A stretch of 64,000 bases of DNA, from assembly GCA_009779925.1 (NCBI GenBank), contig WRAZ01000003.1, positions 62,001 to 126,000 on the forward strand, read 5' to 3'. Numbering within the stretch: position 1 is the first letter of the stretch; each line of letters starts with the position of its first letter. A program made the translations under genes and the position numbers. Below the pieces are notes generated by a model that was given only the letters and a program-made list of their open reading frames with translations, was not told where the DNA came from and searched no databases. Source of the DNA: Chitinivibrionia bacterium. Its GTDB lineage: Bacteria; Fibrobacterota; Chitinivibrionia; Chitinivibrionales; Chitinivibrionaceae. Positions 14,970-17,458 of the stretch are shown here, one piece after another.

Positions 14970-15112
14970 TTTATGCTCCGTTGTTGGTTTTGGTTCGAAA
15001 ATAATATTTTGTTAGGGGGCTATTGCAGAAAAACAAGCAAAATTGCGAAAAATGGAGTAAATTTAGGGGAGGAATTACGAAACAAAAAATAAAAAAGCAG
15101 GGAGGAATTTCT

Positions 15113-17404
15113 ATGCGATTAAACTTCAAATTTTTAATACTATTGGCTGTCTTGGTGCAGTTTGCTTTTGCACTGACTTTTCCGCTTATAACAAACGTTA
15201 ATGCGCGGGTTAATATTACGGGCGGCTCTGCTCCCATTACGGTAAACACAGTCGGCGGGGTGGCGCAGAATATTACTCTTGCGGGAGTAAGTTTGCAAAC
15301 CAATTTGCAGGTTTCGGCGGTGTCGCAAAATTCAAGATTTAATGATTTTAACGGAACAATGACTTTAAATCAGATAGTTATTCCATTCTCGCCTTGGGAA
15401 AATCGGGCATATAGCGGAGCTGTATTTCACAGGGTATCGCATAACGGTAGAAATTGGATAAGCACCGTTGCCGGCTGGGTGCCTCAGACAAGCGTTCCGG
15501 GACAGTCGCCAGCCAACACGTGGGAAGCAAGCTGGCGGGAAGCTCGTATTGACGAATTGGAATTTGGCGCTATGTCAATAAATCTTCCGTTCGGGACACT
15601 CCCTGCCGACAGTGTGTTTATTCCCGTTTTTTCGCTTGTAGATGTAGAACTTGAAATTTCTCATAACGGCGTTCCCACAGCAACAATTCAAATTCCTCGC
15701 AGAACATTGGATACTTTGGCTATTTCGCTTGGCGGCACTGTATCAATCGGACAAAATCAGACAAGAAGAAATGCGGCGCCCGCTCGTTTTGTTTCGCGGC
15801 ACGGACAGCATTCGTTAGCTCTTTCGTCAAATGATTTCAGAAACAGTGAAGTTCGTATTGTGTCGGTAAACGGGAGAGTGATTTCGAGCCAAAGATTGGG
15901 AGAGGTAAATCAAGCAAATATTAACGCTTCAAACATCGCCGCAGGCGTGTATTTTCTGAATGCAAGAGGTGCTAACGGCGCGAATTTCACACAAAGATTT
16001 ATTCATAACGGCGGCGATTTACGCGTGTCCGTACAGTTGTCGGGGGGGGGGGTATTCAATACAGGTGAAACGCCCGCTACGAGGTCGGATAGGGCGGAAA
16101 TATGCAGGCAGGCGCGGTCGCAGGCGGCGTTTACTTTTCGCTTCAGACATCGCGGCGAACATCGAAGCCAAATTACCGACACGGTAGTGCAAGTTTCGGC
16201 AAGAAGCGGCGAAGTGAGCGAACGCGTTTTTGTATCACTTTTGGGCGCGCAACTTGCGGATATATTCACCAAACAAGAATATGAGAATATGTTTCCTTTT
16301 CGTTTTGGTTTCGGACGTGGATTTTGCACTCATCACGTAGGTATGCAGGCAACCAGAGCTTGCATTGATAATCCAAGCACACCACCTCACCCTAAAGACG
16401 GCAACTATGATTTTTATTCTTACGATGCATTTCTTGCGGCGATTTCCTTAATGGGCGAAGTTTATGTTCGCAAGGAATATGCGCGCAGACACGATGGTAC
16501 GATACCTGAAGCTGGGTATCGACTTACGTGGACAAACAGAAGGACACAAGAAACAAGAACGATACAAACGATAGCATTCGATTTTTATCACGATGATAGA
16601 ACCAGTCCTAATTTCAATCAAACAGCTGATTTGGGAATACTTGATTATTCTGATTTTGTAAACGCAGGTTCTTTTAACGACAGAAGAACAGAACTTGCGG
16701 CATTTTTTGCTAACGTTGCGCAAGAAACAGGCGGTGCTGAAAGAGGTATTGGTAATTATCTCTGGGGCTTATTTGAGCTTGAGGAAATAGACTATCACGC
16801 AACTTCCGCTGGTTATCGGACTGAATTCCTGGGACCAAATATCCCTGGTCGTGGACCAACTTTTCCCGCATCAACGAGAGTTCCGACGGCATCATATCAC
16901 GGCAGAGGACCGCTTCAATTAACTCACCCTGTAAATTATGGACAGTTTAGTATGTTTTTCTTTGCAGACCAAAATATTTTATTAGATAATCCCGAACTGC
17001 TTCTGACTTATAGACGAGAAGGTATGGAAGCAGGCGCAATGGCTTTTGCAAGCGCGATTTGGTTTTGGATGACCCCGCAGGGACTTAGGCACGCTCCTCA
17101 TCAATTATACCGTTCGGATTTTCAGGCAACGCAAAGAGACATAGACCAAGGCAGAGCGCGTCCCGACGGAACTCCCGTAAGCAGATTTGGCTGGACTATC
17201 GCGACTATCAACGGCGGTTTAGAGTGTGCAGGAGCGTGGAGAGCGGGCAACACTGGCACTCTTCCGGGATGTCCTGCTAATAGTTCAATGTGCGACTATA
17301 GAGTGCGAAACAGAATTGACCATTTCAGAGAGTTTTCGCGAATATTGGGCTTGCCTGTTCCGCCTGTCAGCGAACTTCATTGCGACAATATGAATTACAG
17401 ATAA
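15113..17404 (+). CDS. Secreted GH19 glycoside hydrolase (chitinase/endolysin-like) with internal sorting-type domain and a poly-G tract
   Basis: 763 residues from ATG 15113, preceded by GGAGGAATTTCT. A signal peptide (residues 1-20, ending FAFA) is followed by an unrecognised domain, then (about 242-300) a domain ending AAGVYFLNARG...TQRFIHNGG. That is the usual form of a type IX-like C-terminal sorting domain but lies in the middle of the protein. Codons 310-313 are an 11-G run. The C-terminal about 360 residues are a GH19 catalytic domain: catalytic Glu538 in FFANVAQETGG, then YHGRGPLQLT, SAIWFWMT and TIATINGGLEC. GH19 enzymes cleave chitin or peptidoglycan. A change of one G would remove the catalytic domain, so expression may be phase-variable. 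A terminator follows. Confidence 0.85.
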   Translation: MRLNFKFLILLAVLVQFAFALTFPLITNVNARVNITGGSAPITVNTVGGVAQNITLAGVSLQTNLQVSAVSQNSRFNDFNGTMTLNQIVIPFSPWENRAYSGAVFHRVSHNGRNWISTVAGWVPQTSVPGQSPANTWEASWREARIDELEFGAMSINLPFGTLPADSVFIPVFSLVDVELEISHNGVPTATIQIPRRTLDTLAISLGGTVSIGQNQTRRNAAPARFVSRHGQHSLALSSNDFRNSEVRIVSVNGRVISSQRLGEVNQANINASNIAAGVYFLNARGANGANFTQRFIHNGGDLRVSVQLSGGGVFNTGETPATRSDRAEICRQARSQAAFTFRFRHRGEHRSQITDTVVQVSARSGEVSERVFVSLLGAQLADIFTKQEYENMFPFRFGFGRGFCTHHVGMQATRACIDNPSTPPHPKDGNYDFYSYDAFLAAISLMGEVYVRKEYARRHDGTIPEAGYRLTWTNRRTQETRTIQTIAFDFYHDDRTSPNFNQTADLGILDYSDFVNAGSFNDRRTELAAFFANVAQETGGAERGIGNYLWGLFELEEIDYHATSAGYRTEFLGPNIPGRGPTFPASTRVPTASYHGRGPLQLTHPVNYGQFSMFFFADQNILLDNPELLLTYRREGMEAGAMAFASAIWFWMTPQGLRHAPHQLYRSDFQATQRDIDQGRARPDGTPVSRFGWTIATINGGLECAGAWRAGNTGTLPGCPANSSMCDYRVRNRIDHFREFSRILGLPVPPVSELHCDNMNYR
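16042..16052 (+). repeat. Homopolymeric G tract (11 G) inside the GH19 gene
   Basis: Eleven consecutive G follow TTGTC. With 11 G the frame is open to 17404. With 12 G a TGA follows within about five codons; with 10 G a TAG follows after roughly 45 codons. The tract lies just after the sorting-type domain and before the catalytic domain. Confidence 0.9.
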
Positions 17405-17424: not shown

Positions 17425-17458
17425 AACGGATTGCGCATTTGCGCAGTCCGTTTTTTTA
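17425..17458 (+). terminator. Rho-independent terminator after the GH19 gene
   Basis: ACGGATTGCGC and GCGCAGTCCGT pair around an ATTT loop with a single mismatch and are followed by seven T. Confidence 0.9.

Follow-up and report, generated by a model that had tools for sequence, protein, structure and literature searches.

Does a run of 11 G residues inside the coding sequence of a secreted GH19 protein allow the bacterium to switch the catalytic part of this protein on and off? The run lies in the window, the 64-kb stretch of DNA analysed here (G000:C3:62001-126000), which was taken from a draft assembly (G000) of 88 contigs and 2.5 Mb. The gene and the features to which the argument refers are as follows.

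15113..17404, + strand: CDS of 763 aa, a secreted multidomain protein with a C-terminal GH19 domain (chitinase class I-like), assigned from the sequence, Pfam and homologues
15113..15172, + strand: probable signal peptide (MRLNFKFLILLAVLVQFAFA), judged by eye from the sequence
15824..15997, + strand: internal type IX-like sorting module (PF18962, aa 238-295; TIGR04183, aa 239-297), assigned from profile matches
16042..16052, + strand: G11 homopolymer, in frame in an inter-domain linker, aa 310-314
16066..16068, + strand: TGA, which terminates translation at 9, 12 or 15 G
16185..16187, + strand: TAG, which terminates translation at 10 or 13 G after the addition of a short Arg-rich tail
16250..17404, + strand: GH19 catalytic unit (approximately aa 380 to the end), common to Bacteroidota GH19 proteins
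17425..17452, + strand: intrinsic-terminator-like hairpin and T run immediately 3' of the gene

The CDS begins with an ATG at 15113 and is preceded by a ribosome-binding site (GGGAGGA) at 15100-15106. Since the gene has this site and its own terminator, a premature stop within it should spare other genes. The sorting module matched the Por_Secre_tail profile PF18962 (29.8 bits) and TIGR04183 (28.3 bits), both just above their cut-offs, and its end is separated from the tract by about 15 residues. The earlier note had placed a GH19 domain downstream of the tract, and the PF00182 core at 16646-17230 (aa 512-706), which scored 73.1 bits against a gathering cut-off of 25.5, confirmed this. The GH19 motifs Q-E-T and YHGRGP were conserved, with E538 and YHGRGP in invariant columns of alignment A1. 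A structure model of low confidence (mean pLDDT 52.7) predicted a helix at residues 4-15 in the signal-peptide region; aa 311-379 were poorly ordered in it.

The tract provides the last base of Ser310, the codons of Gly311-313 and the first base of Val314. It was replaced in silico by 8 to 15 G. The frame stayed open with G8, G11 and G14 (762-764 aa). With G9, G12 and G15, a stop was reached 5 codons past the tract, giving a product of 317-319 aa, and with G10 and G13 the stop came 44 codons past the tract, giving 357-358 aa. Either truncation would leave a protein with signal peptide, N-terminal beta region and sorting-like module and with no part of the GH19 unit. The tract is therefore inside the coding sequence and critical for the frame, as the earlier note had stated, and the computed distances of 5 and 44 codons agree with its estimates of about 5 for 12 G and about 45 for 10 G. 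Its claim that 11 G alone keeps the frame was right for 11 G and wrong in its exclusivity, because any length equal to 2 modulo 3 does so. The cut-off used for phase-variable candidates in Neisseria is at least 9 G/C (PMC5953494). This tract of 11 G within an open reading frame exceeds it, and a change of one base would remove the function, G10 and G12 both leading to a stop before the GH19 domain.

The run is an outlier in length. The window contains 23 G-runs of length 5, none of lengths 6-10 and one of length 11, and a third-order estimate predicts about 0.1 runs of at least 11 G in the whole genome on both strands. In the long ORFs of the window, 12% of Gly codons are GGG; from codon use, three in succession have a probability of about 0.002. 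The 11-G run is also the longest G-run in G000 that is not at a contig end. An assembly or base-calling error, by which the true length would differ or the run would be partly artefactual, was considered in this connection. The species is represented by one draft assembly, and every G000 tract of at least 13 G has a contig end no more than 125 bases away and is followed by error-like sequence. In the same-genus genome G001, moreover, a G16 run (L231; G001:C32, ~19344) seems by eye to fuse a serC-like start to unrelated sequence, resembling a chimeric assembly. Against an error at the present site, the frame is intact through the tract over 763 codons, the nearest contig end is 52 kb away, and both sides of the tract belong together in homologues, which rules out a chimeric assembly at the tract in the GH19 gene. 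We therefore regard a length error as improbable. The siting of the tracts of at least 13 G at contig ends fits instability and equally fits poor sequencing through G-runs. G001, by its accession series a termite-gut MAG (PMC7024585), was sequenced on HiSeq 2000/2500, which is not a two-colour instrument; the dark-cycle G artefact of two-colour sequencers is thus unlikely for G001. The one assembly of the species showed no length variant of the tract, and a scan of viral contigs for its exact flanks gave 0 matches.

The form of the gene before the tract arose was approached through its relatives. Six related genomes contain seven homologous genes between them, each of which encodes an N-terminal region, a sorting-like module, a linker and GH19 in one open frame, of 740 aa in G001, 716 in G022, 593 and 696 in G002, 584 in G003, 567 in G008 and 551 in G004. 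Neither a G-run nor a stop was present at the junction between the module and GH19 in any of the seven genes, including that of G001. The earlier note had named a stop and a different linker as what homologues might show at this site; a stop was found in none of the seven, and the linker does vary. Of the whole protein, the linker shows the lowest conservation, and its length and sequence differ among the homologues. Between G000 and its closest relative G001 it is nearly equal (40 and 41 residues, respectively, counted by hand), and G11 is therefore the length that fits the family. Because the homologues continue from the module into GH19 with no G-run or stop, the fused enzyme is ancestral and not a junction chimera, and its variable linker has acquired the tract recently, in this species. 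Conservation of the tract in homologues, which supports the assignment of a phase-variable locus and is not strictly required for it, was not observed in these seven genes; the tract has therefore not been kept by selection over the time of the genus. The G001 homologue is present twice (L062 on C28 and L076 on C57), with the same score and the same protein, and has a G8 run elsewhere in the gene, within the codons for GGIECGGG.

These comparisons also bear on the sorting module. The earlier note had taken the sorting domain for a natural protein end and the short forms for complete secreted proteins. The first view is refuted by the seven homologous genes, which run on into GH19; the short forms would instead be truncated proteins that lack the enzyme, the module being internal in the homologues. 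A natural short protein ending at the module is likewise ruled out by three other secreted proteins of the order (L068, L072 and L082), in which the module is internal and followed by further sequence. Such an internal placement of the type IX-like module is frequent in this order and unusual for a C-terminal sorting signal. With respect to type A cargo of the type IX system, the protein has the Por_Secre_tail/TIGR04183 domain, but not at the extreme C-terminus, 450 residues following in frame after the tract. SprA is encoded in G000 by a 2200-aa frame with a TIGR04189 match over the cut-off, and a type IX system is therefore likely to be in place.

On the basis of the gene structure, we propose that G11 is a homopolymer prone to slippage, located in a linker that is not conserved, within an ancestral secreted GH19 enzyme. 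Slippage at replication would move the gene between an ON state (tract length 2 modulo 3, full enzyme) and either of two OFF states, of 317-319 or 357-358 aa, in which the GH19 domain is lost, so that it would act as an ON/OFF switch for the catalytic part. RNA polymerase slippage can also be provoked by homopolymers of such length, and would yield full-length and short proteins in constant proportion from unchanged DNA. However, neither a conserved frameshift signal nor the tract itself is present in the homologues, and we consider this explanation very unlikely.

The distribution of poly-G was then compared among 61 genomes by counting positions that match G10, counts which reflect tract length as well as tract number. 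There were 85 such positions in G000 and 232 in G001, 0 to 4 in the nearest family members (G002, G003, G004 and G008), and mostly fewer than 20 in Fibrobacter-like genomes. Genera g6 and g11, which belong to another family of the order, mostly had about 70-380. There are 24 tracts of at least 8 G in G000 and 40 of at least 9 G in G001. Loss of mismatch repair as the cause of this richness is ruled out, mutS and mutL being present and intact; slippage may therefore be slow.

These data also suit a non-adaptive explanation, in which poly-G grows easily in this lineage, a tolerant linker has gained one tract, and any slippage there is not an adaptation. The poor conservation of the linker in length and sequence agrees with it, as do the lack of a run at this site in the sister species and the intact mismatch-repair genes. 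Furthermore, many tracts of G000 and G001 are intergenic and within dispersed repeats, and most are in intergenic repeats or at contig ends, outside genes. On the other hand, neutral expansion alone would not predict that coding tracts in secreted-protein genes are over-represented in the first 40 codons. Of the 10 accepted coding tracts of at least 9 G in G000 and G001, 5 fell within the first 40 codons, compared with 0.8 expected (P ~5e-4), a value that is indicative, since the authors selected the set among open frames, and the lengths of some of the proteins are approximate; with two doubtful tracts added, the tally was 6 of 12. Neutral expansion thus remains a real contender, to which we give an appreciable minority share of the probability.

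The GH19 gene does not stand alone: in this termite-gut genus, several genes for secreted proteins have poly-G within the coding sequence. The tracts in the first 40 codons include those of three polysaccharide-deacetylase-like genes. One is a secreted polysaccharide deacetylase of G000, split over the ends of contigs C26 and C72 (MKNSVIY-Gn-TLHNLNRFLLAFICVM...; PF01522, 65 bits). Its 13 G on C26 (31603-31615) and 16 G on C72 (114-129), in loci L051 and L056, are apparently two sides of one tract, which is located just past the start codon and would be ON at 11, 14 or 17 G. The other two are G001 paralogues, L250 (G9, 971-979) and L334 (G9, 1505-1513), which are 38% identical and match PF01522 weakly, below the cut-off. 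Within the first 80 codons, the G000 members of the L250/L334 family carry at most G5. Conservation of a tract at homologous deacetylase genes is therefore ruled out, and the absence of the run from these homologues indicates fast tract turnover. L250, L334 and L249 are three large secreted-protein genes of G001 with G9-G11 runs within their signal peptides; L249 encodes a secreted protein of unknown family (G11, 1499-1509, - strand). The tracts in the first 40 codons also comprise that of L249 and one in the gene of an outer-membrane-like protein of G000 (L205).

Three families of intergenic or dispersed repeats carry poly-G as well. A dispersed repeat of G000 has the junction ACGACTTATGC-G(n)-TAAACACAGGTGATTTCGCG, with G9-G24, at C4:68049, C11:55036, C20:98, C74:6, the end of C77 and C80:3486 (L045, L048, L049, L057-L059). 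Several alignments between its copies stop at the G-run, and the copies at 1320 and 2224 of L049 have no run. In an intergenic repeat of G001 (L230, L237, L240, L241, L245, L248 and L254), G9-G11 precedes a TATAAT-like box (TACCTTATTATTCATAAGAATAAAATATAATGCGG) by about 40 bases, with unrelated genes downstream; these repeats are possibly promoters tuned by poly-G. The third family, also in G001 (L234, L236, L332 and L333), has the form GTTTGGCACGG..TTGA.TAGC-G(n)-(T)AAATTC.

Taken together, the frame effect, the outlying run length, the Neisseria cut-off, the richness of the lineage in poly-G, the N-terminal excess and the contig-end tracts of at least 13 G speak for switching. The position of G11 in mid-gene, outside the N-terminal region in which the other candidates are concentrated, counts against it, as do the intact mismatch-repair genes, the absence of the tract from the homologues and the negative search for length variants. 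In addition, nearly all coding tracts of G000 and G001 are in frame as assembled, which argues against free switching, since this would leave many out of frame. With the evidence so balanced, we consider the GH19 gene to have an even chance of being a translational contingency (phase-variable) locus. For this candidate locus we infer that the tract would actually switch in length and that selection would act on the lost or gained chitin/peptidoglycan-degrading activity. Somewhat doubtful, and put forward tentatively, is the wider idea that termite-gut Chitinivibrionia (genus g1, perhaps g6 and g11) might possess a genome-scale poly-G phasome that randomly switches secreted enzymes and outer-membrane proteins. 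In such a phasome, polysaccharide-active and chitin/peptidoglycan-active enzymes might be switched through slippery G-runs located in intergenic repeats, in linkers and in signal peptides, and SSR phase variation would serve the enzyme repertoire of an uncultured gut symbiont instead of immune evasion by a pathogen.

If switching is true, a gut symbiont that degrades fibre or chitin varies its secreted enzymes by the mechanism for which mucosal pathogens are the best-known example. Functional annotation of such MAGs would then depend partly on an unstable tract. Because tracts coincide with assembly breaks, genes of this kind may hide at MAG contig ends. The titles and abstracts of the papers searched contained nothing relevant on phase variation in termite-gut bacteria, Fibrobacter or chitinases, a survey that leaves absence unproven.

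By the criteria applied to Neisseria (PMC5953494), the mechanism would be that of an ordinary SSR contingency locus, and the novelty would be in the setting, namely the secreted polysaccharide-active enzymes of an uncultured gut symbiont. As in the poly-G/C contingency loci of Neisseria (PMC5953494), an intragenic run of at least 9 G leads to a premature stop when one base is gained or lost, and as in the Neisseria phasome (PMC5953494), the products are surface or secreted proteins and there are several loci per genome. Unlike the Neisseria loci, the present tract is in mid-gene within an enzyme linker and unconserved in relatives, tracts here are mostly assembled ON, and the host is an uncultured member of Fibrobacterota in which the tract is known from one assembled length. 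The GH19 chitinases with a type IX sorting domain in Bacteroidota (for example Flammeovirga and Aquimarina) have the same catalytic unit (~30-36% identity over approximately aa 380-760). Several Bacteroidota proteins consist, by eye, of a signal peptide, GH19 and a C-terminal sorting-like tail, whereas here the module precedes GH19. Plant-type class I/II GH19 chitinases with solved structures (8x2v, 1dxj and 2baa) match the GH19 core in sequence (E ~1e-19 to 1e-11); compared with them, the present enzyme has longer loops, and its N-terminal adaptor domains and sorting-like module are outside the matched part.
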